Shown: piece after piece, positions 5,182 to 63,977 of the stretch
Layout: each line of letters opens with the position of its first letter
Position numbering within the stretch: the stretch's first letter is position 1
Source: Chloroflexus aggregans DSM 9485
GTDB lineage: Bacteria; Chloroflexota; Chloroflexia; Chloroflexales; Chloroflexaceae
Assembly (NCBI RefSeq): GCF_000021945.1
Contig: NC_011831.1
Span: 2,183,353-2,247,352 of the forward strand
Length of the DNA: 64,000 bases
Direction: 5' to 3'
Translations under genes and position numbers: made by a program
Notes under the pieces: generated by a model
Database searches by the model: none
What the model was told of the DNA's origin: nothing
The model's input: only the letters and a program-made list of their open reading frames with translations

Positions 5182-5194
5182 CGCACAATGTATA

Positions 5195-6305: not shown

Positions 6306-6327
6306 CGCTCACGGGATCGCAGCAAGA

Positions 6328-6522: not shown

Positions 6523-6649
6523 TGCTTTCCTCCTCGTCACGAGATTTGTACTAAGCCTATGACTACTGTAGCAGAATGGTCGGCGATGATCGGTGACAAA
6601 GTCACGTTGGCTGGAATCCGGCAATCAAATGCCGCACAGCTTATCACTC

Positions 6650-6953
6650 AGACGCCACGCGAGCAAAGACGCAGAGAGGGTAAACGCAAAGGCGCGAAGG
6701 GCGCAGAGGTCGCAAAGCATTTTTGGCATCCCTCATCCCCCCAGCGCCAGTAGGAGAGGTGAGGGCCAGCAGCCCGCGCAGTGGGCTTCGTACCTCTCGC
6801 CCGGCCCTTGAGGACTGGGTTCTAGACAGATATTCTGTCTACCCTTGAACTCCCGGATGGGGTTTTTCCTGCCGCCCCTCGCACTGACAACCGGGCCATC
6901 GCGACCCAACCCCATCTTGTGGTATCGTATGCCGGTAAGCGCACGCAACGGAG
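6650..6953. repeat. Intergenic region with GCAAAG-type repeats
   Basis: At 6655-6720 the DNA is a run of short imperfect units (AGCAAAGACGCAGAG, CGCAAAGGCGCGAAGG, GTCGCAAAGC) of the same family seen at 18.4, 24.1, 25.2, 47.7 and 50.4 kb. The rest of the gap to the next gene holds no credible frame. GGAG at 6950-6953 is the ribosome site of the next gene. Confidence 0.65.
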
Positions 6954-6962
6954 ATGAACGGC

Positions 6963-8105
6963 ATGCGGATTCTCTTTATCACCGGTGAATACCCACCACA
7001 ACCGGGCGGTGTCGGCGATTACACACAACGGTTGGCGCAGCACCTCACCATCGCCGGGCACGAAGTGATCACCCTGACGTCGGTGAAGGGGCGCTGGCAA
7101 CTCTGGCGGGCAACGAGTCGCGGCGATGAGGCATTGGCAGCGCCACGGGGACGAGCCAGTTGGCGGTTGGTCGCTGCCGGACGGCTGGCGCAGGTTGTAC
7201 GCCTGATCCGGTCCCAGTGGTGCCACATTCAGTACCAAACCGGTGCGTATCGGTTACAAATTGGCGTGAACGTGCTACCCCTTCTCTTACGCCGCACCGA
7301 GATCGCCACCGCGATCACGTATCACGACTTGCTACCACCGTACCTTTTTCCCAAAGCGGGTCCACTGCGCACCTGGGTGACGCTGCTGCCGGCGCGTGCA
7401 GCCACAGCGGTAATTGCCACCAACCCGGAAGATGAAGCAACCCTACGCGCTGCCGGCCTCCAACCGCGTCTGATCCCGATTGGAGCCAATATCGAACCGG
7501 CCCTGCCGCCCGATTACGATCGCGCCGCGTGGCGGGAACGGCTAGGTGTGGCTGCCGGCGAGGCGCTGATCGGCTATTTTGGCCTGTTGTCGCCGGGCAA
7601 GGGGGTGGATATGCTGATCGATCTGGCGGCCGGCCAACCGCATTGGCGCTTGCTGATCATCGGCGGCGCTGCTACGACCCCCACCGATCGCGCTTACGCC
7701 GAAGCGATACAGCAACGGCTCGCAAGGGATGGTCTGCGCCATCGGGTAATCATCACCGGCCACCTGCCGGCTGCACAGGTCTCGGCCTACCTGAGCGCCT
7801 GCGATGTGATAGCCCTGCCCTTCCGTGATGGTGCTTCGCTACGACGCGGTAGCCTGCTCGCTGCACTCGCCCACGGCTGCGCCATTGTCACCACACCACC
7901 GGCCTCGCCGGCCACCGCCGCCGCCCTCACCGGCGCAGTACAATTCGCTACGGCCCAACCCGACAGCTTTGCCGCAGCGATTGAGATGGTATTGCAATCG
8001 GCGGTGATGCGTGATCGCCTCAGCGAAGCAGCCTGTGCCGTTGCCCGACGGTTTGCATGGCCCACCATTGCGCAGGCGCATCTTGAGCTGTATCAAACAA
8101 GGTGA
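6963..8105 (+). CDS. Glycosyltransferase, GT-B fold (GT4/GT1 family)
   Basis: A 380-residue transferase. The start is MRILFITGEYPPQPGGVGDY, the classical glycine-rich N-terminal loop of GT4 enzymes. The C-terminal Rossmann domain has GYFGLLSPGKGVDMLID (the 'GR.. KG.d' region) and SACDVIALPFRDGASLRRGSLLAALAHG, matching the E-x7-E sugar-nucleotide site only loosely because the first acidic residue is replaced. GGAG at 6950-6953 is well placed for the ATG at 6963 and too close to the in-frame ATG at 6954, so I chose 6963. The donor and acceptor are unknown. Confidence 0.88.
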   Translation: MRILFITGEYPPQPGGVGDYTQRLAQHLTIAGHEVITLTSVKGRWQLWRATSRGDEALAAPRGRASWRLVAAGRLAQVVRLIRSQWCHIQYQTGAYRLQIGVNVLPLLLRRTEIATAITYHDLLPPYLFPKAGPLRTWVTLLPARAATAVIATNPEDEATLRAAGLQPRLIPIGANIEPALPPDYDRAAWRERLGVAAGEALIGYFGLLSPGKGVDMLIDLAAGQPHWRLLIIGGAATTPTDRAYAEAIQQRLARDGLRHRVIITGHLPAAQVSAYLSACDVIALPFRDGASLRRGSLLAALAHGCAIVTTPPASPATAAALTGAVQFATAQPDSFAAAIEMVLQSAVMRDRLSEAACAVARRFAWPTIAQAHLELYQTR

Positions 8106-35971: not shown

Positions 35972-36328
35972 TCAATCGTCGGCTGGACTGGCCCGGTTCC
36001 ACGTCAGCCGGGCGTTGGGATGCGCGTACAGGCTGTAGGCCAGCCAGGTGGGGTCATCGGGATACGCCTCTTTCGCTTGCCTGCGCGCCTGGCGGAGAGC
36101 TGCCGCCAGCGTCATCCCCGGCGTCTGTGTCGCTGTGTAGAACGTCCGGGCGAACTCGTAAGCTATCTGGTCGTTCACTACCCACAGCGGCGCGATGAGC
36201 GCGCCCACCCCATACTCGCCGACGAGTCGCGCAGCCCAGCCGCCTAGCCCGGTGAGAGACCCAGAGACATGCGTCGCCGCGAGGTGCGAGTGCGCTGAAA
36301 AGATTATCCGCCTAGTTCGCCAAGCCAC
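35972..36328 (-). pseudogene. CHAT-domain protease, C-terminal remnant
   Basis: About 118 residues match the end of a caspase-like CHAT domain: SLTGLGGWAARLVGEYGVGA, then LIAPLWVVNDQIAYEFARTF, MTLAAALRQARRQAKEA and DPTWLAYSLYAHPNARLTW. The half with the catalytic histidine is missing, and where SAC-H is expected the sequence reads SAHSHLAATH, so the cysteine is lost too. No start or ribosome site fits. I read it as a truncated, inactive remnant of a CHAT effector, a protein class often paired with NLR-like ATPases. Confidence 0.78.
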
Positions 36329-36440
36329 CTTTGCGACATCAAACTGACACCATCCTCGAAGCCCCTCTTTTCGCGTAAACTACGAAACGACAGAGCACAC
36401 TCCTTGCCTCCAGGGTACGACCCCCTCGCGGACGACCCGC

Positions 36441-38508
36441 TCACTCCGGCAGCCCCCAAACCCGCGCCGGTTCGGTCAGCAGCGTCTGCGAGAGCGGCCC
36501 CATGGAGCAGATCTCCCCACTATCGAGCAGATAGACCTCTTGCTGCGCGTTGGGGTGGCGACAGGCGTCGCTGAGCAGGCGGGCAATCTCCTCACGCAGC
36601 CCCGGCACCTCGATCACCGCCGGCGAACTACCCAGCGCACCCAGCAGCCGCGCGGCGATGTAGGCTGTCGCTCCGCTGGAACCGGTGAGTGCCGCTGCCA
36701 GCGACTGCAGGGCTTCCTCCCCGGCAAACTCGCGTGAGAGGTGACGGAAGCGACCCGCCGCGGCGACGGCGTCTTGTTGCACCGGGGCGACATCCTAGGC
36801 AACCGCCAGCAGCACCGCCACCACCTCCGGCGTGGCCTAGCGCAGGTAGCTCAGGGCGGTGATGGCCTGCCGCCGGGCGGTATAGCTGTCCGCCTGCCGC
36901 GTGCCCCGCACCAGCAGGTCGCCCTGCCCCCGGTCGCGCAGCGCCTTGTTGGGCGCGTCGGGCATGGCTTCGGCGCAGGCAGCAACGGCGGCAAGGGCGA
37001 TGGGCGTGGGCGGCCACTCCTTGCCGGCAAGCGCCTCCTCCAGAGCCAGCAGCAATGCCTCCAGCAGCGTCCCGTCCGTCTCGACCAGCGCGCGCACCAG
37101 CGCCACGACGCGCTCGTGGTACTCGCCCCAGACGTCATCGTCCGTGCCGGCGCGGAGGAAGGCGGTCAGGAGCGCCTCGGTATCGGAGAGGCCCTCCTGC
37201 AACGATTTGAGCAGAGCCGCAGGGTCGACATCCTTCCCGGCGCGGCTCACGCGCAGGCGCACCCACCCCGCGGCGGTCGATCCGTCCGGCAGGGCGGCGC
37301 GCAGTGTGGCCTCGACCGGCGCGTATAGCTCTGCGCTGGCCCGCGCGACCAAACGGGCCAGGGCAGCGGCAAGCACCTCCTCCCTCCCCACCCGCTTCCC
37401 TTCGAACAGACGGAGCAGACGGTCAATCACGGCTGAGTCGGGTTGAGGCAGGTAGCCCATAGTGTGGATAGCCGCCGTGCGCACCGCTGCCTCCCCCGCA
37501 TCCAGGAGCGGCACAAGGCTTTGCGCCGCTCCTGGCGTCTTTTCACGCGCCAACCGCAACAGCCAGGCAGCGGAATCGAGCAGCGCCTGCTGCACGGGCG
37601 GCGCAGCCGTCTCCAGCAGGTTCAGGAAGGCCGGCCAGGCGGCGTCATCCAGGCAGTGAATACGGCCCAGTATCACCTTATTGCCATCCGCCGCCCACCG
37701 CTGCAGCCAGTCCGGCCGGTCGTGGACGATCTCCTTGAGCGACCAATCCAGGTAGATTCCACCGCGTAGGAGAGCGTCTCCATCTGACCCGGGTCAACCC
37801 AATCCCGCCAACATCCCGTACCTTCGCCGGTTGCCGGGCAGCCGGCGCGCGCCGCCCTGTCCTGACAGCGGTAGCAGCGGGCTATCTGCTCGATCGTCTC
37901 GCGGCCCAAGGCGGAGGCAGCGCGTTCACGAACCAAAGCCAACCGGGCGCGGTAGCGGGTCAGGTCGGTCGGGTTGACCAGGCAGGCGCAGAAGAGCGGT
38001 ATGGTCTGCGGGGTGAGGTAGCCCATCTCGGCCAGCAGGAGCGCGGCGTGGTGGACGGTGGGGGGAGGCAGCGCGGCGTCCCGGCCGTCGGCAGCCAGCC
38101 GCTCAGGATCTGCCGGGCGCGTTCCCGTTCCTCGACCGTGAGTCGGCCAGGGAAGCGGCAATCCAGGCGGGGGAGTAGGTCGGCCTGCTGCGCCCTCGCC
38201 GTGTCCAGTTCCGCCAGCCGTTCCCGGTTGAGACGCAGACGGGGGGCCGCAGCCCAGTCTGCCAAGGATGGCCGCTGCTCTTCCCACGCCTTCATCAAGG
38301 ACATCCATGCGGTAATGACGCTACCTTCCATCAAGATAATGGTCAACCGCCGTACCCAGATCAACCCATCGTTCAGGAGATTCCACAGTTCCGCGCTCGG
38401 CGACTCCTGGATTGCCGCCGACCTCTCCGTGGCGATAGCCTCCAGGTGACGCAGCGTTTCCTCAAGACTGCGGACAAGGGCGCGGGCGAGTAGGAATGGT
38501 GGGCGCAA
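36441..38508 (-). pseudogene. Decayed HEAT-repeat protein
   Basis: The minus strand codes a helical-repeat protein in pieces. From 38508 one frame reads to about 38090 (LEETLRHLEAIATERSAAI and on), then a second frame carries LAADGRDAALPPPTVHHAAL to about 37750, then a third from VILGRIHCLDDAAWPAFL to a TAG at 36837-36839, a short piece to another TAG near 36796, and a last piece ending VWGLPE at 36441. Alanine/leucine helix pairs throughout are HEAT-like. At least two frameshifts and two amber stops (each at a likely CAG) show decay. The original role is unknown; the place between a CHAT remnant and an NLR gene suggests the same conflict system. Confidence 0.8.
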
Positions 38509-38671
38509 GTCAGCTAGACGCGGAGGTTGGCGAACATCGTTTGATCATCGGAGCGTCGAACGGTCAGAGAAGCGCGCAGCGGGGTGGGCTGAACAGCAAA
38601 CGGCGGAGCAACATGACTGCAAGCGAGGAACGGTTCCTTGCAGGAGATGCACGCCACAACTCAACCCACCT

Positions 38672-41302
38672 TCAGCGCACCCACTCAAAAATCCACACCC
38701 GCCCTTGTTTATCGCCGCAGGCCAGGGTACGGTCATCACCGGAGAGGGCAAGGGAGAGAATCGACGTGTCGTTCCAAAAGAGGAGGCAGGACTGCCCGCT
38801 TTCCAGGTCCCAGGAGCGCAGGGTGTGGTCATCCGACCCGCTGACGACTAAGCGCCCATCCGCGCTCAGCGCCACCGCAGTCACCACACTCGTATGCCCT
38901 TCCAAAGAACGCAGCAGGCGCCCCGTCTCCTGCTCCCACACCTTCACCGTGCGGTCGGCCGACCCGCTGACGATGAAGCGCCCATCCGCGCTCAGCGCCA
39001 CCGCCCTCACCCAACCCGTATGCCCTTCCAAAGAGCGCAGCAGGCGCCCCGTCTCCCGCTCCCACACCTTCACCGTGTGGTCGTCCGACCCGCTGACGAT
39101 GAAGCGCCCATCCGCGCTCAGCGCCACCGCAGTCACCAAACTCGTATGCCCTTCCAAAGAGCGCAGCAGGCGCCCCGTCTCCCACTCCCACACCTTCACC
39201 GTCTTGTCGTCCGACCCGCTGACGACCAAGCGCCCATCCGCGCTCAGCGCCACCGCAGTCACCCCACCCGTATGCCCTTCCAAAGAGCGCAGCAGGCGTC
39301 CCGTCTCCCGCTCCCACACCTTCACCGTCTTGTCGTTCGACCCGCTGACGACCAAGCGCCCATCCGCGCTCAGCGCCACCGCATTCACCACACTCGTATG
39401 TCCTTCCAAAGAGCGCAGCAGGCGCCCCGTTTCCTGCTCCCACACCTTCACCGTGTGGTCGTCCGACCCGCTGACGACTAAGCGCCCATCCGCGCTCAGC
39501 GCTACCGCATTCACCACACTCGTATGTCCTTCCAAAGAGCGCAGCAGGCGCCCCGTTTCCTGCTCCCACACCTTCACCGTGTCGTCAGAAGATCCGCTGA
39601 CGATCCAGCCGCCATCCGGGCTCACCGCCACCGCGTTCACATCACGCGTATGCCCCTCCAGGGAGCGCAGCAGGCGCCCTGTCGCCGCCTCCCACACCTT
39701 CACCGTGCGATCCCGGGAACCGCTGACGATGAAGCGCCCGTCCGGGCTCACCGCCACCGCGGTCACCGCCCACCTATGCCCCTCCAGGGAGCGGAGCAGG
39801 TTCCCCGTCGCCGCCTCCCACACCTTCACCGTGCCGTCAGCCGACCCGCTGACGATGAAGCGCCCGTCCGGGCTCACCGCCACCGCGTTCACATCGCGCG
39901 TATGCCCCTCCAGGGAGCGGAGCAGGCGCCCCGCCTCCCACCCCCACACCTTCACCGTGCCGTCAGCCGACCCGCTGACGATGAAGCGCCCGTCCGGGCT
40001 CAGCGCCACCGCGGTCACCGCCCACCTATGCCCCTCCAGGGAGCGGAGCAGGTTCCCCGTCGCCGCCTCCCACACCTTCACCGTGCGATCCCAGGAACCG
40101 CTGACGATCCAGCCCCCGTCCGGGCTCACCGCCACCGCGGTCACTGGCTCTGTATGCCCCTCCAGGGAGCGGAGCAGGCGCCCCGTCGCCGCCTCCCACA
40201 CCTTCACCGTGCGATCCCGGGAACCGCTGACGATCCAGCCGCCGTCCGGGCTCACCGCCACGACAGTCACTGGCTCTGTATGCCCCTCCAGGGAGCGGAG
40301 CAGGTTCCCCGTCGCCGCCTCCCACACCTTCACCGTGCGATCCCAGGAACCGCTGACGATCCAGCCGCCGTCCGGGCTCACCGCCACGGCGGTCACCCCA
40401 TCCGTATGCCCCTCCAGGGAGCGCAGCAGGCGCCCCGTCGCCGCCTCCCACACCTTCACCGTGCGATCCCAGGAACCGCTGACGATCCAGCCGCCGTCCG
40501 GGCTCACCGCCACCGCAGTCACCCAACCCGTACGCCCCTCCAGGGAGCGGAGCAGGCGCCCCGTCGCCGCCTCCCACACCTTCACCGTCTTGTCGTTCGA
40601 CCCGCTGACGATCCAGCCGCCGTCCGGGCTCACCGCCACCGCAGTCACCCAACCCGTATGCCCCTCCAGGGAGCGCAGCAGGCGTCCCGTCGCCGCCTCC
40701 CACACCTTCACCGTGCGATCCCAGGAACCGCTGACGATCCAGCCGCCGTCCGGGCTCAGCGCCACCGCAGTCACCCAACCCGTATGCCCCTCCAGGGAGC
40801 GGAGCAGGTTCCCCGTCGCCGCCTCCCACACCTTCACCGTGCGATCCCAGGAACCGCTGACGATCCAGCCGCCGTCCGGGCTCACCGCCACGGCGGTCAC
40901 CCCATCCGTATGCCCCTCCAGGGAGCGCAGCAGGCGCCCCGTCGCCGCCTCCCACACCTTCACCGTGCGATCCCAGGAACCGCTGACGATCCAGCCGCCG
41001 TCCGGGCTCACCGCCACCGCAGTCACCCAACCCGTACGCCCCTCCAGGGAGCGGAGCAGGCGCCCCGTCGCCGCCTCCCACACCTTCACCGTGCGATCCC
41101 AGGAACCGCTGACGATCCAGCCGCCGTCCGGGCTCACCGCCACCGCAGTCACCCAACCCGTATGCCCCTCCAGGGAGCGGAGCAGGCGCCCCGTCGCCGC
41201 CTCCCACACCTTCACCGTGCGATCCCAGGAACCGCTGACGATCCAGCCGCCGTCCGGGCTCAGCGCCACCGCAGTCACCACACTCGTATGTCCTTCCAAA
41301 GA
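38672..41302 (-). repeat. 21 tandem WD40 repeats, 126-bp unit
   Basis: Twenty near-identical 42-residue repeats (SLEGHT..VTAVA(V/L)SPDG, then IVSGS.D.TVKVWE) and one diverged final repeat. Twenty-one equals three seven-bladed propellers. Repeats 2-4 and 6-8 share the same order of variants (HTGWV, RTGWV, HTDGV), showing a recent block duplication of about 500 bp. Repeats 15-20 form a second subfamily with ALSADGR in place of SPDGG. Differences cluster at the two or three residues after GH and around the SGS.D turn. Confidence 0.93.
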
Positions 41303-43036
41303 GCGCAGCCAGGGCGGGGGCTGCGGGCGCGGGTCCTGCAGGGCGCGCAGCCAGTTGCGGCGGGCCGGGCGCGCCGCCTCGCACAGGGCGTGTAGGGGAC
41401 CGTCGGGAGCGTCCGGCCAGGTGAGGTGGTTGTAGAGCGCCGGGAAGAGCCACTCGGGCGCCCCGGCGATGTGATAATCTTCCAGGCGCAGGCGCTCCTC
41501 GAAGGCGGCCAGGACGTTTCGGTGGTCGGCGTCGTTCGCAGGCCAGCGGGCTAGAGCCAGGCGGTAGTCAGCCTCCAGGTCAAAGACCGACGTCGCCCGG
41601 CAGCGGGCTTCCAGGTAGTCAAAGTCAGTCAGCAGGCGGTAAAGCGCCTCCCAGGCACCCGCTTCCAGCAGGTGATAGACCAGGCGATCCCACAGATAGC
41701 GCGGTTCGGCGGGCATCCGCTGCCAGGGCATGCCATCCAGGGTCTGGCCATCCACCCCCAGCAGACTGCGGGCGCAGGCCAGCAGGAAGCGGCAGTGCAG
41801 GTCCGGCAGGGTGTCCCGCTGGACGGCGCGCAGGTAGTCGTGCTGCAGGTCGTGCAGGCGCAGGGAGCGCCCCGTTTCCTCCCAGCGTGCCAGCGAGCGG
41901 CCGACAAAGGTCTCGGCCAGGTCGGCCACGTCGTCCGCATCCAGCCCCCAGAAGGCGCGCAGCACATCCAACGGGATGGCTTCTTCTTCGGGGAAGACGG
42001 CCAGGTCCAGGTAGCGGGCGCGGGCGTCCTTCGGCAGGGCGGCGACGCTCACCTCCAGGGCGGCCAGCAGGGTGGAGTGTTGGTAGCCAGGGAAAAGGCG
42101 GCGCAGTTTCTCCAGGTCGGCCTTTTGCAGGCGGTGGAGGGCGCGCTCCCAACTCTCCGGGTTCTGGCGCACAAAGGCGCCGACCATCGCCAGTACCAGC
42201 GGCAGGTAACCGCATTTCCTCGCCACCTCGCAGGCGGTGGGGGGCAGCGAGGATACCTCCTGCCCGGCCCACTCGGCCAGCAGGTGCAGGGCCTGATCGG
42301 GGGTCAGCTCTTCCAGCAGGAAGGGCTTCGCCTGCAGGGTCTGCAGCAGTTCGCCGTTGCGGGTGGTGATGAGGAAGCGCGCCCGTGCCCCCTCCAGGCG
42401 CAACGGGAAGGCTTCGGCGTGCTCCAGTTCCCACAGGTCGTCCAAAATGACCAGGCAGGTCTTTTCTCGCAAGGCCGGGGCCAGGAAGAGCCGCCCCTGA
42501 GCCGGGTCCTTGAAGTTCTCCCGCTCGCCGGTCAGGAGCAGGTAGAGGTCTTCCTGGCGGGCGGTGAGGTTCGGCTCGCGGCCCAGGGCCAGCCAGATGA
42601 CGCCATCGGGGAAGGCGGCCTGCACAGTGAGGTCGCGCGCCAAGGCGGTGACCAGCACCGACTTGCCGATGCCACCCATCCCATGCACGCCAACGATGCC
42701 CAAGGTCGGCGCACCGTTGCGCAGCAGCGCCTCCCGCAAGGGAGCCAGGAAGGTCTCGCGCGGGATGTAGTGGTCGGGCAAGAGCGGGACGTTGTGGAGA
42801 TGAGACGCCAGCAGTTTCTCCAGGTCGGCGCGGCGGCGGGCGTCAAGTTGAATGTGGAGATCGCCGGTTATGATGACCGCGCCGTCGGCGCTGCCGCCAA
42901 TGGCGACGGCGCGGTCGCCGGTGGCGATGAGCAGGTGGCCTTCGGTCAGGGCGCGGTGCAGGAGGTCACCATCGGCAGGAGATAGGGTCCCTTCCGCCAG
43001 CCGTTTCAGGATCTGTTCCAGGTCTGGTGCAGGCAT
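38672..43036 (-). CDS. NLR-like STAND protein: NB-ARC ATPase with 21 WD40 repeats
   Basis: A 1454-residue intact protein. Residues 1-36 are two short helices; 37-64 are a Gly-rich beta motif (GDRAVAIGG, GAVIITGD). The NB-ARC unit follows: P-loop GMGGIGKS at 119-126, Walker B CLVILDD at 194-200, FLITTRN at 221-227 and CGYLPL (GLPL-like) at 275-280, then winged-helix and helical parts (HDLQHDYLRAVQ near 400). Residues 579-1454 are WD40 repeats. Such proteins sense a trigger through the repeats, oligomerise on ATP exchange and switch on an effector. No effector domain is fused; the beta motif shared with the small gene 6 bases upstream suggests it works through a separate partner. Confidence 0.93.
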   Translation of the reverse strand: MPAPDLEQILKRLAEGTLSPADGDLLHRALTEGHLLIATGDRAVAIGGSADGAVIITGDLHIQLDARRRADLEKLLASHLHNVPLLPDHYIPRETFLAPLREALLRNGAPTLGIVGVHGMGGIGKSVLVTALARDLTVQAAFPDGVIWLALGREPNLTARQEDLYLLLTGERENFKDPAQGRLFLAPALREKTCLVILDDLWELEHAEAFPLRLEGARARFLITTRNGELLQTLQAKPFLLEELTPDQALHLLAEWAGQEVSSLPPTACEVARKCGYLPLVLAMVGAFVRQNPESWERALHRLQKADLEKLRRLFPGYQHSTLLAALEVSVAALPKDARARYLDLAVFPEEEAIPLDVLRAFWGLDADDVADLAETFVGRSLARWEETGRSLRLHDLQHDYLRAVQRDTLPDLHCRFLLACARSLLGVDGQTLDGMPWQRMPAEPRYLWDRLVYHLLEAGAWEALYRLLTDFDYLEARCRATSVFDLEADYRLALARWPANDADHRNVLAAFEERLRLEDYHIAGAPEWLFPALYNHLTWPDAPDGPLHALCEAARPARRNWLRALQDPRPQPPPWLRSLEGHTSVVTAVALSPDGGWIVSGSWDRTVKVWEAATGRLLRSLEGHTGWVTAVAVSPDGGWIVSGSWDRTVKVWEAATGRLLRSLEGRTGWVTAVAVSPDGGWIVSGSWDRTVKVWEAATGRLLRSLEGHTDGVTAVAVSPDGGWIVSGSWDRTVKVWEAATGNLLRSLEGHTGWVTAVALSPDGGWIVSGSWDRTVKVWEAATGRLLRSLEGHTGWVTAVAVSPDGGWIVSGSNDKTVKVWEAATGRLLRSLEGRTGWVTAVAVSPDGGWIVSGSWDRTVKVWEAATGRLLRSLEGHTDGVTAVAVSPDGGWIVSGSWDRTVKVWEAATGNLLRSLEGHTEPVTVVAVSPDGGWIVSGSRDRTVKVWEAATGRLLRSLEGHTEPVTAVAVSPDGGWIVSGSWDRTVKVWEAATGNLLRSLEGHRWAVTAVALSPDGRFIVSGSADGTVKVWGWEAGRLLRSLEGHTRDVNAVAVSPDGRFIVSGSADGTVKVWEAATGNLLRSLEGHRWAVTAVAVSPDGRFIVSGSRDRTVKVWEAATGRLLRSLEGHTRDVNAVAVSPDGGWIVSGSSDDTVKVWEQETGRLLRSLEGHTSVVNAVALSADGRLVVSGSDDHTVKVWEQETGRLLRSLEGHTSVVNAVALSADGRLVVSGSNDKTVKVWERETGRLLRSLEGHTGGVTAVALSADGRLVVSGSDDKTVKVWEWETGRLLRSLEGHTSLVTAVALSADGRFIVSGSDDHTVKVWERETGRLLRSLEGHTGWVRAVALSADGRFIVSGSADRTVKVWEQETGRLLRSLEGHTSVVTAVALSADGRLVVSGSDDHTLRSWDLESGQSCLLFWNDTSILSLALSGDDRTLACGDKQGRVWIFEWVR

Positions 43037-55789: not shown

Positions 55790-56200
55790 TTAGGGGTGGA
55801 TGAACAACACTAATCGCCAACAATTCAGCTCGCGCAGCCGACGGTACTGCAACCGGTCAAGGATTGCTGCTGCGATTGCGAGTCCCCTTCCCCGTTCTTC
55901 CCAATCGTCAGGGAGTGCGAACGCCGACTCTGGCCTTTCCCACCGGTGACCATGATCAACGAGTCGCGCCTCGATCCGGTGTGGTGTACAGCGGAGCCGC
56001 AACTGGATTGGCTCCGCTTCCGAGGCAACGGCATACTGTAAGATATTCGCAACCACTTCCGCGAGAGCGGTACTAAACCGTATCTGCGCCTCCGGTGCTA
56101 CCCCGGCTTCAGCCCAAAACGCATTCAATGCGGTGTGGAGCTGGTCGATCCCTTCTGCGAGCACTGGGCTGAGTTCGTAATGGCGTTCGATACGGTGCAT
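55790..56200 (-). CDS. RsbW-like anti-sigma factor / serine kinase (HATPase)
   Basis: A 136-residue GHKL ATPase of the RsbW/SpoIIAB group. The N-box is ALAEVVANILQYA with the Mg-binding asparagine, the D-box LVDHGHRW (a DxGxG variant) and the G-box ERGRGLAIAAAIL. Such kinases phosphorylate a STAS antagonist and bind a sigma factor or other target. Its STAS partner lies 15 bases upstream and a PP2C phosphatase sits at the head of the same operon, so all three parts of a partner switch are together. No sigma factor gene is in the operon. Confidence 0.88.
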   Translation of the reverse strand: MHRIERHYELSPVLAEGIDQLHTALNAFWAEAGVAPEAQIRFSTALAEVVANILQYAVASEAEPIQLRLRCTPHRIEARLVDHGHRWERPESAFALPDDWEERGRGLAIAAAILDRLQYRRLRELNCWRLVLFIHP

Positions 56201-56215
56201 ACGATAGCTCTGTCG

Positions 56216-56581
56216 TCACACAGCGTGCAACGCTTCGTCTACGTTGGGGTACGGACGCAAGACGCGATTGAGCGTTGTCAATTCTAAAATCGCCTGGGCT
56301 TGGGCGTTCAGGTTGGCCAGGCGCAGATCACCGCCGGCGAGCCGTGCTGCTTTCAGACCGCCGATCAGCGCACCTAATCCCGAACTATCCACAAAACTGA
56401 CCTCCCCCATATCAACGACAATCAAGCGGAACCCGTCACTAACGATCTGGGATAAACGCTGCTTCACTTCGGTAGCCACCAAGAGATCGAGACGGCCACG
56501 CAGTTGGACTACAACGGCGCGTTCATTCATCGGGTTGACGGTAATCTCCATCAGTGCCCCTTTCATAAACTCTTCTAGCAT
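56216..56581 (-). CDS. STAS-domain anti-sigma factor antagonist
   Basis: A 121-residue RsbV/SpoIIAA-like protein. The phosphorylation loop is FVDSSGLGALIGG, with the candidate acceptor serine in DSSG. Three in-frame ATG codons (56581, 56566, 56551) are possible; AAGGGGCACTG favours the last, which begins MEITVNPMNERAVVV, while the gene spacing favours the first. It is the natural substrate of the kinase encoded next and of the PP2C domain at 60.6-63.4 kb. Confidence 0.9.
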   Translation of the reverse strand: MLEEFMKGALMEITVNPMNERAVVVQLRGRLDLLVATEVKQRLSQIVSDGFRLIVVDMGEVSFVDSSGLGALIGGLKAARLAGGDLRLANLNAQAQAILELTTLNRVLRPYPNVDEALHAV

Positions 56582-56587
56582 AACGGT

Positions 56588-58558
56588 TTATTGCTCCTCG
56601 GTGGGTTGGTACAAGGCAGCATCGATGACCACACTGAGCATAACCAGATCGTACACCGCCCAAAAGACATTGACAAGCACGGGAAGTCCGTCATTGCGCC
56701 AGCCCAGCGTTAGTTGCAGTAGTCCTACGACAATCGAGACTGCTAAGAGGATCATCATCGCTAACTGCCAGCGCACCAGGCCAAAATACCGCCCGGCCTG
56801 CCGGGTTTTGGGAGTGACGATAAATCCTAACTTCTTGCCAAACCAGACGTTTGCAGCCGCCGTTACCACTGCTTTGATCCAGAGTGGGAAAAGCGCCAAA
56901 CTATACTGCTGCCCACGCCATGTTGGTCGCCCCCAACTGATGACGGCAAACAAGAGCTGGTTGATCAGTAAGTACGGGATTAAGCGCCAAAAAAACTCAT
57001 TCGATAACGCATTCACCGGCAAGAGGCCAAACAACAGAAACAGTGGCGGTGATATAAGGTAGATAATCGTCGGCACGCCTGACAAATAACTCCACATCGT
57101 ATCAAAATAGGCCAGACGCTGCCCCCAGCTTAACCCTGGAAGCGTCAAGGGGTTTTCCCGCAGCATAACCTGTATCGTCCCCTGCGCCCAACGGAGGCGT
57201 TGTTGCAACGCACTACGCAAATCTTCAGGTGCTAATCCGTGGGCCAGAATCTCATCGTGGTATACCGAACGCCAACCACATGCGTGGAGGCGCATCGATG
57301 TTGACATATCTTCGGTCACCGAGATGGTTGAAATCGGGAGATAATCCATCGCTTCATTGACGAGCAGCGGTATCAGTTGACGCACCGTCTCAATGGCAGC
57401 CAACGGTGAGCGGTCGCGGGCTGCAAGCTCGGCCAAGATCGTTTCGTCATTCAGCGACCGCATAATCTCTGCCGCTTCAGCGGCTTGGATCTCGGCTAAA
57501 TCGGCCATTATTTGCTGTAAATCCGCTGCTACTATCAACCGTGCCGCCGCTTCTGCCCGCTGCTGAAAGCGTTCGGTTACTTCTTGGAAGGTATCACCGC
57601 GGTTAAGTTCGTGCCGGGCCTGCCGCACCGCCTGTCGCAATGCCCGCAACGCCGGTGCAATGCGATGACGGTCTGCTTTAGTCAACGTTCGTTCAGCTCG
57701 CTTGACGACAGTGTCAGCTTCACGTAAAGCACGCCGAATACGTCGCTCGACATCGCGTACAAAGAAGCGAACACCGGTCCGGGCCAGCGCCTCGCGGCGT
57801 AGCACGGCATTCGAGCCACAGAAAAATGCTGCGTTCCAGCCGTCTTTGCCTTGCTGAATCGGACCGTAAAACAGCGGTGCCTGGCTGCCAAACGGATCGC
57901 CTGGCGGGACATTGATGAAATACTGTGGTGTTTGCACCAACGCGACCAACGGATCGGTAAAATAGCCGAGGGTACGGTCGAGAATGGTTGGCAGCGGTAC
58001 CTGATCGGCATCGAGGATCAGAATAAAATCCCCGGTCGTATGTTCAAGGGCATTGATGAGATTGCCGGCTTTGGCATGACGGTCAAATCCCTGCCATACC
58101 GGTGAACGGGTGATATATCCGCAACCCTCTTCGGCGGCCATTGCCCACATCGCCGGACTATTACCATCATCGAGCAGATACGTCTGATGCGGATAGCGGA
58201 TAGCGATGGCGGCTCGCACCGTCTTGCGCACCAATTCCACCGGCTCGTTGTAGCAGGTAATGTAGACATCAACGCGCAATCCCGGCGGCGTCGGCGGTGG
58301 CTCACCCCGTTCTTTGAGCCGAAACACGGTTAATCCAAAGAGAAAACTACCGATGTAACTGTAGAGTTCGGCTCCGAACAATGCCAGGGCAAACCACCAC
58401 GCATGCCAATTAAGCGATACTGTTCCCCGCCAGAGGAGATAGTAGGCGCCGAGGATGAGGTTGGTGATGACCAGAATCTTGATCAGACCGCGGCGGAATG
58501 CCGCCCATTCCGCCGGTTCCCAGCCAACCCGAAATAAGATTGTCCGCGTGTATTGCAT
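56588..58558 (-). CDS. bcsA: BcsA-like cellulose synthase catalytic subunit with a coiled-coil insertion, no PilZ domain
   Basis: A 656-residue processive GT2 membrane enzyme. The catalytic set is complete: DD at 130-131, DAD at 183-185, TED at 415-417 and QQRLRW at 452-457. Two membrane helices precede the catalytic domain and about six follow. Between FFCGSNAVLRREAL and VTEDMST, where close relatives have about 15 residues, there are some 145 residues (262-408) of charged helix, probably a coiled coil. The C-terminus ends after the last helix, without the c-di-GMP-binding PilZ domain of BcsA. The polymer may be cellulose or another beta-glucan. Confidence 0.88.
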   Translation of the reverse strand: MQYTRTILFRVGWEPAEWAAFRRGLIKILVITNLILGAYYLLWRGTVSLNWHAWWFALALFGAELYSYIGSFLFGLTVFRLKERGEPPPTPPGLRVDVYITCYNEPVELVRKTVRAAIAIRYPHQTYLLDDGNSPAMWAMAAEEGCGYITRSPVWQGFDRHAKAGNLINALEHTTGDFILILDADQVPLPTILDRTLGYFTDPLVALVQTPQYFINVPPGDPFGSQAPLFYGPIQQGKDGWNAAFFCGSNAVLRREALARTGVRFFVRDVERRIRRALREADTVVKRAERTLTKADRHRIAPALRALRQAVRQARHELNRGDTFQEVTERFQQRAEAAARLIVAADLQQIMADLAEIQAAEAAEIMRSLNDETILAELAARDRSPLAAIETVRQLIPLLVNEAMDYLPISTISVTEDMSTSMRLHACGWRSVYHDEILAHGLAPEDLRSALQQRLRWAQGTIQVMLRENPLTLPGLSWGQRLAYFDTMWSYLSGVPTIIYLISPPLFLLFGLLPVNALSNEFFWRLIPYLLINQLLFAVISWGRPTWRGQQYSLALFPLWIKAVVTAAANVWFGKKLGFIVTPKTRQAGRYFGLVRWQLAMMILLAVSIVVGLLQLTLGWRNDGLPVLVNVFWAVYDLVMLSVVIDAALYQPTEEQ

Positions 58559-58561
58559 ACC

Positions 58562-60610
58562 TTACCGCCACCACCGGATGCGTATCACGAGAATTGCCGT
58601 AGCCAGCAGGGCAATGAAGACAATGGCACCGATCACTTGCCAGACAGGGAATCGTTCGAGCAGCGCTACCTCAATCTTTGGGGTCAAGGTTTGCGGCGGC
58701 GGAGCTAACGGTGTCGTCAACGGTACGACGGTGATGTCAAGATCACTGCTGATCTGGGCTTGTGACCCGCGTAAGACCTGTAGTAAATCCCGTTCCCGCA
58801 GACTGCGTACCCCCAATTGCAGCCCTTTACCGTCGGTCGCTTCGATCAATAATACTCGTGCCTGGGCTTGCCACGGCGAGCGAACGACACTCAGCGTCGC
58901 TTGGGTACTACGCCCGGGTTGGTAGACAAACGGTGGATTCGTAGGAGAGTTCAGAGCAGTTGCGAGCGGATTGCGGTTGCGGTCACCCAATACGGCCAGC
59001 GGCCCACCGCGATCATCGCCAAGGGTGTCGGCTGTCAGTACCATTGGTGGCGGTAGATCGGGTAAGACTCTCCATCGCCCGATTGCAGCCCCCAATTCGA
59101 GACCGGCCTGTACCTCGCTCAGGTCCGGTTGTGGCGGGAGGATCAGCCGCGCCGGCTGCTCACTATCCAACATTGCCGGAAACCGACCGAGATCATCGCT
59201 TGCTGCCGGATCGTTCGGTAAGCGCCACACCGATGTTGGTTCGATGATCGCCCATGCTGCTGTCGTATCCACCTCTTCGCAACCGATATTGGGGAGATCA
59301 AGGTAGAGCCGTACCTGTAGATCGATGCGACGTAATGGAGTACCGTTCAAATCGCTGTTGAGAAGATCGGCGGGAAGCTCAAACCGGTACCGTTCGATGG
59401 CCGTAGAATTGACGCGGAGGCGTTGTGAACCGATCGTTATTCCATTGACCGCTACCGCCAGCCACGACGAGTCGGGCATTAAGCCGGCAGCCGTGACAAC
59501 GTGCAGTTCTAGCGTCGCCCCAACCCGCAGATCCCAAGCAGGTGGTCGCTCGAAGGCAATATCAATGCGATGTTCACCGGCGCCAACCACCTGCCGTCGC
59601 TCTACTCCAAGTTGGGCAAAGCTAGCAGCTCCCTCACGCCACGCTGCTGCAACGGTAGTCGGTGGTGGCTGGGTGACGGCTAACACGGATGCCGCCGGCA
59701 AGACGTGGGTGAGTGCTTGCGCTGCATAGGTAAGCGCAGTCGGTGTGGCGCCGGCCACCAATAAGCGCGGTGGTGTGACCAGGGCCAACGCTAGTACCCC
59801 ATGGTCAACCGGTAGGGGTACTCCGTCAACTTCATACGTGTTTCCGTTCCAGCGTACCGTTCCCCAATCGCCATCCGGTAATGCACCGTAAGCGACAACA
59901 ATGGCCGGTACCTGCGGTGGGATCGTCTCGGCAACGTTGATCACGGGGTCTTGTCCGGCCAATGCTGCCCACCGGCCCACGGCGAACGCCACTGTACCGG
60001 CAGCGTTCAGGGTTGCCGGGTCGGTTGGTGGAGACAACACCATAGTCGGCGGTAAGCGAGTTGCCGGCGCGCTCAACGGTAAAGGTGCGAAGAGCGCAGT
60101 TACATTGGCGAGGGTCCCTACCGTCACTGGCTGTACATCCAGGCGGAGGGTTGAATCACCGCTCACGACCGCCCATAGCGCCGGATTTTGCACCTCCTCA
60201 CACGGGTCATCGGTCAATCGCATATGAAATTGCACTTGGAGGAACAAACCCGGTCCGTTAAAGCCGGTAATCGGCAAAGAGACGGTCAACTGGCCGTTTT
60301 CAGCATTATCGGCGGTGAGACGGATACTCGCCAGCGATTGCCCATTCAACGCAACACTGAGCGTCGAACGATCGGGCTTGAGCAACGATGAATGCGTGAA
60401 ACGCAAGGTCAACACACCGTCACTTGCCGGTTGTAAGCCAAGTGGTATCGGAAAATAGTAGTCAAGCACCGCATCAATGCCACGGGCTGTACGATCACCA
60501 TAGCCGAGATCGGCAAAGCGTAATGCCGTTCCTTGAGCAACAACCGGCGCCGGCAAGCAGATCGACCAAAATGCAAGAATACTTACCATCCACCAGCGCC
60601 ACACGATCAT
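58562..60610 (-). CDS. bcsB: BcsB-like cellulose synthase accessory subunit
   Basis: A 682-residue exported protein: signal peptide ending VVAQG, two repeated halves of carbohydrate-binding plus flavodoxin-like folds, and one C-terminal membrane helix (VIGAIVFIALLATAILVIRI). The halves echo each other: ..DDPCEEVQNPALWAVV near 165 and ..NIGCEEVDTTAAWAII near 455, each with a cysteine, as in BcsB. It would guide the polymer out of the membrane at the BcsA channel. It overlaps the regulator gene by 4 bases and lies 3 bases before bcsA. Confidence 0.88.
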   Translation of the reverse strand: MIVWRWWMVSILAFWSICLPAPVVAQGTALRFADLGYGDRTARGIDAVLDYYFPIPLGLQPASDGVLTLRFTHSSLLKPDRSTLSVALNGQSLASIRLTADNAENGQLTVSLPITGFNGPGLFLQVQFHMRLTDDPCEEVQNPALWAVVSGDSTLRLDVQPVTVGTLANVTALFAPLPLSAPATRLPPTMVLSPPTDPATLNAAGTVAFAVGRWAALAGQDPVINVAETIPPQVPAIVVAYGALPDGDWGTVRWNGNTYEVDGVPLPVDHGVLALALVTPPRLLVAGATPTALTYAAQALTHVLPAASVLAVTQPPPTTVAAAWREGAASFAQLGVERRQVVGAGEHRIDIAFERPPAWDLRVGATLELHVVTAAGLMPDSSWLAVAVNGITIGSQRLRVNSTAIERYRFELPADLLNSDLNGTPLRRIDLQVRLYLDLPNIGCEEVDTTAAWAIIEPTSVWRLPNDPAASDDLGRFPAMLDSEQPARLILPPQPDLSEVQAGLELGAAIGRWRVLPDLPPPMVLTADTLGDDRGGPLAVLGDRNRNPLATALNSPTNPPFVYQPGRSTQATLSVVRSPWQAQARVLLIEATDGKGLQLGVRSLRERDLLQVLRGSQAQISSDLDITVVPLTTPLAPPPQTLTPKIEVALLERFPVWQVIGAIVFIALLATAILVIRIRWWR

Positions 60611-63432
60611 ACGCTATCCTCAGGTGTCAAATCTCGAACTAACACGACGACCGTCAAATCGTCGGTCAACGGACCAAGTAATGCCGGCAGCGCCAATAGG
60701 CGATCAACAATCGCCGTAGCCCGCATCCCGTCTTCAAGCAGTTCGTTGATCAGAAACGGATCTTTGGTCAATGCCGGCCACGGATCGAGCAAACCATCAC
60801 TAAACAAGATGAAGGCATCACCCGGATTAAGGACCGTTTCGCCTTGCCGGTATGGTTCTTGCGAAAAGATACCGAGCGGCGCACCACGTGGTTCAAGCCG
60901 ATCAAATCTTCCACCGTGTCGTCGGATGAAGCCCAGCCCGTGACCGGCATCGACAAATGCCAGGGTGTGTGTGTTCAGATTCAACTGCGAATGGCACAGG
61001 GTGACAAAACTACTCGTCCGGTCCAGATCGGCGTAGAGGGCATTGACGGCATACCGCATATTTACTTCTGGCGGTGTTTCCCGCGCCACCGAACGGATGA
61101 CGGCGCGGGTGGTTGTCATTAACAGTGCCGCCGACATCCCTTTGCCCATCACATCACCAAAGGTCAGATTAAGCAGGTGTGGAGCGGGGAAGTGCCAATC
61201 GTAGAAATCGCCACCCACATCACGAGCCGGAATGCACCGAGCGGCAATGGTGTATCCCGGTAAGCGAGGCATTTGCTGCGGCAGCATTTCGGCCTGGATC
61301 TGGGCAGCGTGCTTGATCTCGGCTTCTAGCTCACGACGTTTCTGCTCCAACCGGCGTTGTAACGCTGCATTTTCCCGTTGGAGACGTAGATTCGTGAGGG
61401 TCCGTTCCAGAACGACCAGTAGCTCTTGCCGATCAATCGGTTTGCGCAGGTAATCGTCGGCACCGTGACGAATCGCATTCACCGCGATCTGTTCCGAACC
61501 GAAGGCCGTCGTCATTATCACCGCCGGTTCTGGACCGGCCCGACGTACCTGATCGAGGACATCAATCCCACTCAGTTCCGGCATCAGAATGTCAATTAAG
61601 GCAACATCAATTCCACCTTGGGCAATGCGCTGCAAAGCCTCGAAACCGCTCTGCGCTATCTCCACCCGGTAGCCCGCATCAACCAACCAAATTTGGAGCA
61701 AGCGACAAATGTTCGGGTCGTCGTCCACCACCAAAACGACCGGCGCCTGATGAGTTCGGCTCGGTGATGGTGGCAGAGTACGGCGTTGCGGCACATGCAT
61801 CGAGTGTGTATCGGCAATCACAACGAGATTACGACCTTGGTTTTTAGCCTGATACAATGCTGCATCGGCTTTTTCCAGCAACGAACCGGTGTCCATCCCC
61901 AAACTCCACTCGGCAACGCCGGCAGAGAAGGTGACACGCAACGGCTCACCTTCGCGCTGGTGCTCGATATGGGCAAATCGTTCGCGTAGGCTATCGATCA
62001 CCATCGCTGCGCTCGCAGCGCGCGTGTCGGGCATGACAACCAAAAACTCTTCACCGCCGTAGCGCCCAATCACGTCGGTTGTCCGTAAACGTTGACGGAG
62101 AAGACGGGCCAGACTTTTCAGGACGCGGTCACCCATTTGGTGGCCATGGCGATCGTTCACTTGTTTAAAATGGTCAATATCGATTAACACGACCGATAAC
62201 GGTTGCCCATTCCGCCGTGCGCGCGCTACTTCTCGCGTCAAGAGATCCTGCGACACGCTGTGGTTAAACAAGCCGGTCAAGCCGTCACGTACCATCAGGC
62301 TCCGAATGGCGCGGGCGCGCTGAATGCGAGAACTCACTGCGGCTACCAGGTGTTCGAGATTAATCGGTTTGGTGAGGAAGTCATCGCCGCCACGCGCCAA
62401 CGCGGCCAACTGCGCCGAACGGTCGGTTTCACCCGACAAGAACACGATCGGGATACTGTGGTATTCCGGTTGTTGACGAATCACAGCGGCTAACTCTTGC
62501 CCACTACAGCCCGGCATGTAGACATCGAGTAAGATCAGATCAGGTTGCTGCTCGGCCAGCAACGTCGGCGCTTCCAGTGGGTCGGTCGTTGCGATCACTT
62601 GCATACCGGCAGCCCGTAACGCCAGTGCGTATACTTCAGCCATCAGCGGCGAGTCATCGACGATCAGCACCGTGTACGGTTCGCTAATCGTGCGTTGAGT
62701 CATCTGATCGATCTGGTCGATCAATACCCCAAGATCAATAGGGCGCGTAAAATATCCGCGCCCTCCGGCACGCACGGCGGCCAGCCGTAGGGTAAAATCG
62801 GCACTGCTTGCGGTAAAGATGATCGGTATGCGATCCCCATACCGATCATGCACGACGGCGGCTGCGGCAATCCCGCTCTGCGGTCCCTCGGCTAGATGCA
62901 GATCGATAATTACTAATTGTGGCGCCTCACGCGCGATTGCTGCTAATAATGCAGCACTGCTGGTAAAGTATTCAGTCTTATAGCCGAAATAGGTGATCTG
63001 ACGGGCAAGTTCGGTCGTCTCTTCGAGGTTATGACCGGCGAGATAGATTAACGTTGTGGTCGTGACCGGCTGCTCTTGAATTACCGTGGTCAGTACCGAC
63101 GGCGGGTTGCGGAGTGTCTCTAGCAATTGAGCAACGAGACCGGCGATCGATGAGAAGTCAGCAGGCAATTCATCAGTACTGATCAAGGGTTGCAAGGCAA
63201 TATCGAGGGCGCGGGCTGTTTCACTAACCGCCGTCAACCCAAATGTGGCACCGGAACCGGCAAGATTATGCGCTAACCGTTGCAACTCACGCAGATCGTC
63301 CCGGTCATACGTACCGGATTGCAACCGTGTCCAGATGGTCGTGATGCGGTTAGTCTTCTCTTCCAGTTGAGCAAGATATTGCTGCTGAAGTTCGGTAAAT
63401 AAGATGTGTGCCGCGCTGGTATGTGTGTTCAT
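60607..63432 (-). CDS. Multidomain response regulator: Hpt-REC-REC-GGDEF-REC-PP2C
   Basis: A 941-residue signalling protein (ATG 63432; 21 further codons are open upstream). In order: Hpt (candidate phospho-His55 in RLAHNLAG), REC1 (127-247, Asp177, but ITYFGY and a lone acidic cluster make it diverged), REC2 (254-374, Asp303 in LLDVYMP), GGDEF (382-539, GGEEF 459-463 with the I-site RTTD at 450-453), REC3 (565-684, Asp614), a coiled coil (684-719) and a PP2C/SpoIIE phosphatase (724-934, GGDFYDWH and DAGHGLGF). It can in principle both make c-di-GMP and dephosphorylate the STAS protein of the same operon. Confidence 0.93.
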   Translation of the reverse strand: MNTHTSAAHILFTELQQQYLAQLEEKTNRITTIWTRLQSGTYDRDDLRELQRLAHNLAGSGATFGLTAVSETARALDIALQPLISTDELPADFSSIAGLVAQLLETLRNPPSVLTTVIQEQPVTTTTLIYLAGHNLEETTELARQITYFGYKTEYFTSSAALLAAIAREAPQLVIIDLHLAEGPQSGIAAAAVVHDRYGDRIPIIFTASSADFTLRLAAVRAGGRGYFTRPIDLGVLIDQIDQMTQRTISEPYTVLIVDDSPLMAEVYALALRAAGMQVIATTDPLEAPTLLAEQQPDLILLDVYMPGCSGQELAAVIRQQPEYHSIPIVFLSGETDRSAQLAALARGGDDFLTKPINLEHLVAAVSSRIQRARAIRSLMVRDGLTGLFNHSVSQDLLTREVARARRNGQPLSVVLIDIDHFKQVNDRHGHQMGDRVLKSLARLLRQRLRTTDVIGRYGGEEFLVVMPDTRAASAAMVIDSLRERFAHIEHQREGEPLRVTFSAGVAEWSLGMDTGSLLEKADAALYQAKNQGRNLVVIADTHSMHVPQRRTLPPSPSRTHQAPVVLVVDDDPNICRLLQIWLVDAGYRVEIAQSGFEALQRIAQGGIDVALIDILMPELSGIDVLDQVRRAGPEPAVIMTTAFGSEQIAVNAIRHGADDYLRKPIDRQELLVVLERTLTNLRLQRENAALQRRLEQKRRELEAEIKHAAQIQAEMLPQQMPRLPGYTIAARCIPARDVGGDFYDWHFPAPHLLNLTFGDVMGKGMSAALLMTTTRAVIRSVARETPPEVNMRYAVNALYADLDRTSSFVTLCHSQLNLNTHTLAFVDAGHGLGFIRRHGGRFDRLEPRGAPLGIFSQEPYRQGETVLNPGDAFILFSDGLLDPWPALTKDPFLINELLEDGMRATAIVDRLLALPALLGPLTDDLTVVVLVRDLTPEDSV

Positions 63433-63574
63433 AGTGATCTCACGCTCTTGCCCCCACACCGGTTTATGTGTGTCTGCGGTATTTACCTTTATCATATCTG
63501 ATCAAACGATACGTTTATTACTCTTTTCGAGGCTTTTTTTCTGCTTCTATGACAGAATGATAACAACTACGTGA

Positions 63575-63916
63575 TTATCGGCTTTGTGTTGTTGGGGAAG
63601 TGGTCACCACCAGCGCTACTCCGATCGACGCAATAATCAACCCGCTGAGCGCCCATAGTCCCAACCGTTCACCGAATAATATCCAGGCTTCAAGCGCAGT
63701 CGCCGGTGGTACTAAGTAACTCACCTTACGCAGCCAGTTGAGCGGGCTTGAGTTCTTGCAACTAGGCATAAGCAGCATAAATGGCATCCAGATAGAGTTT
63801 GGTTTTGAGTGCAACGTGATGGAGTTTGGTATTGCTTTTGAGTCGTTCGAGTTTGATGTACCCGCACAAAGTCGCAAAGCAATGATTTGTGTGGTCACAC
63901 AGAAAGGAGACAACAA
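63575..63916 (-). pseudogene. EamA/DMT transporter, C-terminal fragment
   Basis: Only the last 50 residues match a drug/metabolite transporter: KVSYLVPPATALEAWILFGE, then LSGLIIASIGVALV and a short tail. A full EamA protein has ten helices and about 290 residues. The sequence upstream (63740-63916) is unlike a transporter and of lower G+C; it belongs to a different element that seems to have replaced the front of the gene. It is next to a direct repeat at the window edge, so an insertion or deletion is likely. Confidence 0.7.
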
Positions 63917-63977
63917 TGATCGTGCGGAACAACATTAGTTTCGCACAAAGCCGCAAAGCAATGATTTGTGTGGTCAC
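63864..63977. repeat. 35-bp direct repeat at the right edge
   Basis: GCACAAAGTCGCAAAGCAAT and the following 15 bases (63864-63898) recur at 63943-63977 with one change, 79 bases apart. Both are followed by TGTGTGGTCAC-like ends. They may be part of a mobile element whose other end is outside the window. Confidence 0.65.

Follow-up and report, generated by a model that had tools for sequence, protein, structure and literature searches.

Organization of the operon

The 64,000-nucleotide stretch of the Chloroflexus aggregans DSM 9485 genome analysed here (contig NC_011831.1, positions 2,183,353 to 2,247,352), referred to below as the window, contains an operon that combines a cellulose-synthase-like enzyme with the components of a partner switch. 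The host genome is one contig of 4,684,931 bases. The operon is a minus-strand run of five genes, which encode a multidomain regulator, BcsB, a BcsA-like synthase, a STAS protein and an RsbW-like kinase, with intergenic gaps of -4, 3, 6 and 15 nucleotides (Table 1). The Pfam matches comprise Hpt, three REC, GGDEF and SpoIIE/PP2C domains in the regulator, BcsB (E 2.3e-67), the cellulose-synthase GT2 domain, STAS, and HATPase_c_2. An earlier reading, made from the letters of the window and its open reading frames (ORFs), had described one operon joining the synthesis of cyclic di-GMP (c-di-GMP), a complete partner switch and a cellulose synthase. The five genes of this sequence-only reading, their order, the gaps of -4 to 15 and each named domain were reproduced. 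The regulator gene is present as described, except that its ORF opens at 63495 and the start given before, 63432, is an inner ATG; either may be the start in use.

Table 1 Features of the synthase operon (positions in the window; aa, amino acids)
Feature	Position	Strand	Remark
Regulator, Hpt-REC-REC-GGDEF-REC-PP2C/SpoIIE phosphatase (GGEEF, I-site RTTD), 962 aa	60607..63495	-	Alternative start 63432
GGDEF domain of regulator, aa 403-556	61828..62289	-	Among related operons, in the genus of the window only
PP2C/SpoIIE phosphatase domain of regulator, aa 775-952	60640..61173	-	Part of the regulator that recurs in related operons
BcsB, 682 aa	58562..60610	-	Among related operons, detected only in the genus of the window and Roseiflexus
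BcsA-like cellulose synthase, 656 aa	56588..58558	-	DDG, DAD, QTPQ, TED, QRLRW, gating loop FIVTPK; no PilZ match
Helical insertion of synthase, about aa 262-405	57344..57775	-	Between GSNAVLRREAL and TED; three long helices and a conserved, weakly predicted stretch
Insertion stretch aa 346-387, near-invariant R..SPL	57398..57523	-	Mostly missing in paralogues without kinase and phosphatase nearby
STAS protein, 121 aa, phosphoacceptor motif DSSGLG at aa 65-70	56216..56581	-	Pfam
RsbW-like serine kinase, HATPase_c_2, 136 aa	55790..56200	-	E48, N52, G104 and G106 invariant among aligned relatives

The synthase and its helical insertion

Control by c-di-GMP through a PilZ domain is taken as the rule for cellulose synthase. 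The synthase of the window retains the BcsA catalytic motifs DDG130, DAD183, QTPQ209, TED415 and QRLRW453 and the gating loop FIVTPK579, all of them intact, and its product is predicted to be a β-1,4-glucan. An AlphaFold2 model calculated from a 53-sequence alignment has a mean predicted local distance difference test score (pLDDT) of 85.6 and a predicted template modelling score of 0.84. It superimposes on E. coli BcsA (9fnn_A) with a Z-score of 33.2 and a root-mean-square deviation of 2.1 over 468 aligned residues with 31% identity. The alignment spans residues 194 to 697 of the E. coli chain, where the synthase stops, before PilZ. After bacterial BcsA, chains of plant CesA rank next among the structural matches. 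PilZ was found by Pfam neither in the synthase nor in the host genome at E<=0.001, and the same search was positive in five of 14 control genomes. Two features set the enzyme apart from a standard BcsA: PilZ is missing, and about 145 extra residues are inserted. None of the family models scanned gives a name to this type of synthase; its score with the NCBIfam CelA equivalog is 338.5 bits against a cut-off of 699.1, and an Arthrobacter member (L073) reaches 355.5.

The insertion is placed in the cytoplasmic catalytic part of the enzyme, before TED. Family members have 157-177 residues between the GSNAVLRREAL-type motif and TED, a value that varies with the search pattern and is unreadable in some of them. 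The tail after QxxRW is mostly 204-234 residues long in insertion-type synthases, and at least 327 in relatives with a motif distance of 13-14. PilZ is present in seven of the 10 insertion-less relatives scanned. The modelled insertion contains helices 255-290, 294-319 and 324-356, predicted with high confidence. Residues 373-381 have pLDDT below 50 and adjoin the positions at which the insertion is best conserved: in about 100 aligned sequences, a few being duplicates, these are R381 (97%), S384 (100%), P385 (99%) and A388 (99%). In Pfam the insertion has no convincing match; the commonest, TraB, was returned for 14 of 53 members, reached E 0.0011 at best, and is below the cut-off in the window protein. 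Nothing was found below E 0.09 among PDB sequences, or at E<=0.001 by Foldseek with the insertion modelled alone, where the listed rows contain only generic helical bundles. A sigma-like fold, which could serve as bait for the kinase, was looked for and not seen in the Foldseek matches; it may still exist. The insertion together with the missing PilZ provides a sequence signature for finding such enzymes.

The partner-switch proteins

Partner switches are best known for controlling gene expression. The domain set encoded in the operon is complete: a SpoIIE-type PP2C phosphatase, a STAS protein with a phosphoserine motif, and a kinase of the HATPase_c_2 type whose N and G boxes are conserved. 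D65-S66 of the STAS protein is kept in 82 of 82 sequences above 45 bits, and E48, N52, G104 and G106 of the kinase in 88 of 88 above the same score. PF01740 and PF13466 are the only Pfam matches of the window STAS protein at E<=0.01; DUF1987 (SiaC) is not among them. Further HATPase_c_2 and STAS clusters of the host genome, at C1:3690977-3692213 and 3111995-3113082, are candidate partner switches.

Linkage of the switch to the insertion

Relatives were collected by a class-wide search (158 genomes), a phylum search (400 genomes) and one scan of named genomes, from which the 80 best matches to the query among at least 558 confirmed relatives were used. Insertion-type synthases occur in Chloroflexus, Roseiflexus, other Chloroflexota, many Actinobacteria (including Arthrobacter, Nocardioides, Rhodococcus, Kocuria, Curtobacterium and Geodermatophilus) and one metagenome-assembled genome (MAG) labelled Pseudomonadota. 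With duplicates removed over all searches, there are 126 distinct loci with a full insertion and at least 900 nt downstream. At 109 of them, a STAS gene (within 1.5 kb) and a kinase gene (within 2.5 kb) lie downstream on the same strand; at three (L076, L116, L124) both are local and rearranged; and five, from Curtobacterium, have the kinase without STAS. Absence of the two genes from orthologous operons, which the sequence-only reading had given as grounds for abandoning its proposal, is not the pattern seen, as 112 of the 126 loci have both. The pairing of a complete partner switch with the synthase holds well beyond this operon, since the STAS-kinase pair recurs beside such synthases at more than 100 distinct loci in two phyla. 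Of the 115 loci that extend at least 1.5 kb upstream, 87 encode PP2C there on the same strand and 94 encode it at any position; both counts are lower bounds because many loci are short. The comparison set consists of 17 loci, which encode 18 related synthases with 0-7 residues at the site of the insertion. STAS, kinase and PP2C were found at none of these 17 loci, in stretches of 4 to 14 kb.

The individual samples gave similar pictures. The 80 named loci comprise 64 with PP2C, synthase, STAS and kinase, four in which PP2C was undetected, six from Curtobacterium with synthase and kinase, five with the synthase alone, and one cut by a contig end. In an order-wide sample of 15 genomes, STAS and kinase stand beside all 12 full-insertion best copies fetched; two other genomes have the short type only, and the centre genome has STAS and kinase at two of its three copies. 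A family-wide sample (30 of 38 listed matches) has both genes at 24 of 27 full types, and three further members are short types. Pfam shows no other recurrent neighbour in a set of 124 genes that flank 26 Actinobacterial loci, where the top family occurs in three. These genes were called by a crude GC-based caller, with genes longer than 600 aa omitted; 128 were listed, and four of L125 were dropped as having the same coordinates as genes of L083. Among the clusters listed, clustering of the flanking ORFs yielded mostly antisense shadow frames. The co-occurrence of the insertion-bearing synthase and the switch is beyond chance. The operon is thus probably a partner switch that acts on the adjacent cellulose-synthase-like enzyme through the insertion, in place of control by PilZ and c-di-GMP. 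That the switch might act on the synthase had been proposed for the window; the conserved linkage supports this proposal, as an argument from sequence.

Alternatively, a canonical partner switch could operate on a distant sigma factor, with the kinase as anti-sigma factor, the STAS protein as its antagonist, and the synthase as part of the regulon that is merely transcribed along with them. The domains encoded match the RsbU/RsbV/RsbW set, NCBIfam assigns the STAS protein above cut-off as an anti-sigma-factor antagonist, and the kinases match RsbW or RsbA weakly. No sigma factor is encoded inside the operon, as the sequence-only reading had stressed; this alone leaves room for a distant one, and distant ones were not searched. 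However, no sigma factor recurs nearby: two of the 124 flanking genes match Sigma70 regions 1.2, 2, 3 and 4, and region 1.2 is atypical of SigB-type factors. In addition, the switch tracks the insertion-bearing synthase and is absent from the 17 insertion-less loci, which a transcriptional role does not predict. We therefore regard a distant sigma factor as an unlikely target.

In the catalytic-core tree, calculated without the insertion from 94 tips (65 full, five short and 24 insertion-less), all 70 insertion types form one clade with a support of 0.89. The module is patchy. At E<=1e-100, 15 of 297 genomes have it within the order to which genome G510 belongs, and two of 296 within the phylum; both counts include the centre genome, and up to four candidates were scored per genome. 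A profile catching full and short types was positive in 33 of 197 genomes in the family of genome G1008. The MAG labelled Pseudomonadota (L069) falls inside the Chloroflexota synthases, so either its label is doubtful or genes may have been exchanged. The coordinates of the flanking genes are the same in L083 (Williamsia) and L125 (labelled Kitasatospora), and the two are 62% identical position by position over 17.9 kb, so that one of their labels may be wrong.

Natural deletion variants

Two groups of relatives lack parts of the module. In Curtobacterium (L118, L127, L130, L137, L142, L145) the kinase gene directly follows the synthase gene, and neither STAS nor PP2C was detected at the locus. 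A STAS-kinase pair is present elsewhere in five of the six genomes, with PP2C undetected in the 8-13 kb fetched around it. The sixth genome, a 2.5-Mb MAG, contains two STAS matches in long ORFs, and the pair was not found. The Curtobacterium arrangement favours the kinase as the direct partner of the synthase. At L130, the kinase gene is followed by one for a large secreted-looking protein.

The second group consists of five distinct short-insertion paralogues of the same order (L274, at 5184-7685, L275, L276, L277 and L281). Residues 373-387, including R..SPL, are lost in all five; so are residues 346-369, although in two paralogues this first loss covers 346-357 and 365-369. Kinase and phosphatase were undetected within the 5-13 kb fetched. 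A STAS gene is retained, in which the DSSG motif has become GASG or SPSG, as read from the alignment for four and by motif search for the fifth. The short-insertion loci are candidates for a frozen switch. The retention of a serine-less STAS protein beside a short-insertion synthase favours STAS as a direct partner, and the loss within 346-387 suggests that these residues are what counts in the regulated state. In the tree, the short-insertion paralogues branch as the sister of the full types as a whole (support 1.0, on a long branch), and the short insertion may represent either a loss or an early state.

A BcsA-like protein on plasmid pn1 of Nostoc sp. UHCC 0926 (L322:4732-12110) shares 47% aligned identity with the synthase of the window and has no PilZ match. 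It lacks the insertion of about 145 residues and has a different one between DDG and DAD. Genes for STAS, SpoIIE/PP2C, REC and HATPase_c_2 lie within 6 kb. This is possibly a second, independent pairing of a synthase with a switch.

The c-di-GMP arm

The regulator has an I-site RxxD five residues upstream of GGEEF, both in the window and in six of six same-genus relatives that cover the region, which confirms the GGEEF with I-site recognized before. Among related operons, GGDEF scores above 100 bits in six of 133 locus rows, all from the genus of the window (the window itself is uncounted); two of the 133 rows are short-insertion types and many stretches are short. GGDEF was found in none of 10 phosphatase proteins from other groups (Roseiflexus, Actinobacteria and other Chloroflexota). 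These 10 phosphatase proteins differ in their input half, which is REC in two, GAF in seven and CHASE-PAS in one, and the Roseiflexus protein is REC-PP2C. BcsB was detected in 12 rows, from Chloroflexus and Roseiflexus only. At the Actinobacterial loci it was not detected with a profile of Chloroflexota BcsB, PF03170 itself not having been searched there. Because GGDEF, BcsB and the phosphatase input half vary among relatives, the constant unit is PP2C phosphatase, synthase, STAS and kinase, and c-di-GMP is a local addition.

Consequently, c-di-GMP as a conserved control of this synthase is rejected: GGDEF is limited to one genus and PilZ is absent. Since neither the synthase nor the genome has a PilZ match, the c-di-GMP made here would be unable to reach the synthase by the textbook route. 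The host genome has 14 GGDEF domains versus no PilZ domain at E<=0.001; therefore, c-di-GMP would need other receptors in this organism. This demotion of the c-di-GMP arm from a general feature to a local one is the main correction of the sequence-only reading, whose overall interpretation is partly supported.

The limited spread of GGDEF also bears on a different scheme, in which the switch would control the diguanylate cyclase of the regulator, as in SiaC-SiaD, HsbA-HsbD and BgrV-BgrR, and c-di-GMP would then act on BcsB or elsewhere. An intact GGEEF with I-site is fused to PP2C in the genus of the window, and STAS or STAS-like proteins that control diguanylate cyclases have been published, according to the account in PMC8457831. 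Against it, switch and synthase stay together in Roseiflexus, other Chloroflexota and Actinobacteria, in whose related operons GGDEF was not seen, and PilZ was found neither in the synthase nor in the genome. This scheme is improbable.

A proposed model of direct control and the evidence against it

We propose the following mechanism for control of the synthase by the switch. Signals would enter through the phosphatase protein, by phosphorelay and REC in the window and by REC, GAF or CHASE-PAS elsewhere. The PP2C domain would dephosphorylate the STAS protein at the serine of DSSG, and the RsbW-like kinase would rephosphorylate it. The partners would then exchange, and the freed one could dock on the helical insertion of the synthase and turn polymer synthesis or translocation on or off. 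In the slightly favoured version, unphosphorylated STAS would be an activator, like SiaC, HsbA and BgrV on diguanylate cyclases; the lean towards STAS arises because STAS or STAS-like proteins control enzymes in SiaC-SiaD, HsbA-HsbD and BgrV-BgrR, as described in PMC8457831. In the other version, the kinase would bind and inhibit the synthase, as an anti-sigma factor does sigma. Docking, and the direction of control, are predictions from sequence. In the genus of the window, the diguanylate cyclase joined to the phosphatase protein would provide a second, local output. We consider the chances better than even that control of the synthase is direct. We also lean, narrowly, towards a wider version, in which a widespread synthase class of at least two phyla has exchanged PilZ control for direct docking of STAS, the kinase or both on the insertion at the catalytic face.

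It is very improbable that the neighbours lack a functional link and the insertion is an oligomerization element comparable to the class-specific region of plant CesA, which likewise lies between DxD and TED. The insertion is a helical bundle, and plant CesA is the next structural match after bacterial BcsA, but the synteny is conserved across two phyla and the insertion stretch is lost in paralogues without kinase and phosphatase.

Several observations weigh against direct action of the switch on the synthase. Nine of the 126 full-insertion loci have neither STAS nor kinase in the fetched stretch. An operon-type STAS-kinase pair is present in the genomes of all eight examined (L092, the ninth, was left out); at L282 and L286 it lies within 3 kb on the opposite strand, just beyond the fetched stretch. 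L254, also of the nine, has no QxxRW stretch and may be broken. The natural variants disagree on the partner, as Curtobacterium points to the kinase and the short-insertion loci to STAS. Three of the 10 insertion-less relatives (L025, L022, L169) also have no PilZ match, and PilZ loss is thus not borne out as a mark of the insertion type alone. At E<=0.001 the host genome has 34 matches to STAS and 31 to HATPase_c_2 (18 of these HATPase_c_2 matches exceed the cut-off of the family), and with so many further genes cross-talk or a distant target is possible. Mutual information is low between insertion and STAS (z 0.4) and between insertion and kinase (z 0.2), but the STAS-kinase control is weak as well (z 1.6); the catalytic core and membrane part give z -1.9 to 0.4 with STAS or kinase. 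This underpowered calculation used 113 paired operons (effective number 69) and a null of 20 shuffles within similarity clusters. Furthermore, there is overlap between the samples, which also lack phylogenetic independence, and the 80 named loci were chosen as best matches.

Relation to known systems

The synthase shares with BcsAB of E. coli and Rhodobacter sphaeroides the GT2 core, the transmembrane layout, the catalytic motifs and the gating loop FxVTxK, and, in the genus of the window and Roseiflexus, the BcsB partner. It differs in the missing PilZ, the helical insertion and the partner-switch genes in the operon. The switch has the PP2C phosphatase, the STAS protein with DSSG serine and the GHKL serine kinase of RsbU/RsbV/RsbW and SpoIIE/SpoIIAA/SpoIIAB; unlike in those systems, a polymer synthase stands in the operon where the cognate sigma factor would be. 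The parts are of known kinds, and their combination in a synthase-linked partner switch is apparently new. A broad PilZ-less branch of synthases tied to a protein switch is contrary to the PilZ rule. To our knowledge, this would, if true, be the first partner switch with a polysaccharide synthase as its target. A partner switch tied directly to a cellulose or other polysaccharide synthase was not found in the literature searched, which lay mostly outside subscription journals.

SiaABCD, HsbRAD and BgrSTUWV likewise combine a STAS or STAS-like protein with a kinase and a phosphatase, and have a non-sigma target and a biofilm or polymer outcome, as is predicted for the switch here. Their target is a diguanylate cyclase in the description of PMC8457831, which also records that c-di-GMP was first described on cellulose synthase; here, in contrast, the conserved partner is the synthase. 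SiaC belongs to DUF1987 and the window STAS protein to PF01740. SypA/SypE of Vibrio fischeri and HmpUVW of Nostoc resemble the operon in a phosphorylation-controlled STAS protein, a polysaccharide-related behaviour and the lack of a known sigma target; they differ in that a candidate target is encoded in the operon here. The sigma-free switches SypA, RbaV and HmpV govern biofilm formation or related behaviour, and in the account of PMC8256260 SypA and RbaV act on unknown targets, whereas for HmpV even direct action on a target is undecided. The downstream target of HmpUVW and SypA is described as unknown or undecided in the relevant parts of PMC8256260 and PMC4517449. If our reading is true, the synthase provides a candidate where sigma-free switches, SypA and HmpV among them, have lacked a target. 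A concrete target, a candidate docking element and natural deletion variants make the targets of sigma-free switches testable with few proteins.

Other features of the window

Upstream of the operon, the window contains two 36-nt direct repeats that are 97% identical and 79 nt apart (63863-63898 and 63942-63977). The end of an ORF adjoining them (63575-63916) appears to resemble a transporter fragment. At 38496-43036, long ORFs of 979 aa (plus strand) and 1454 aa (minus strand) overlap on opposite strands. The GC content is 66-71% at 36001-42000 versus 52-63% elsewhere in the window.

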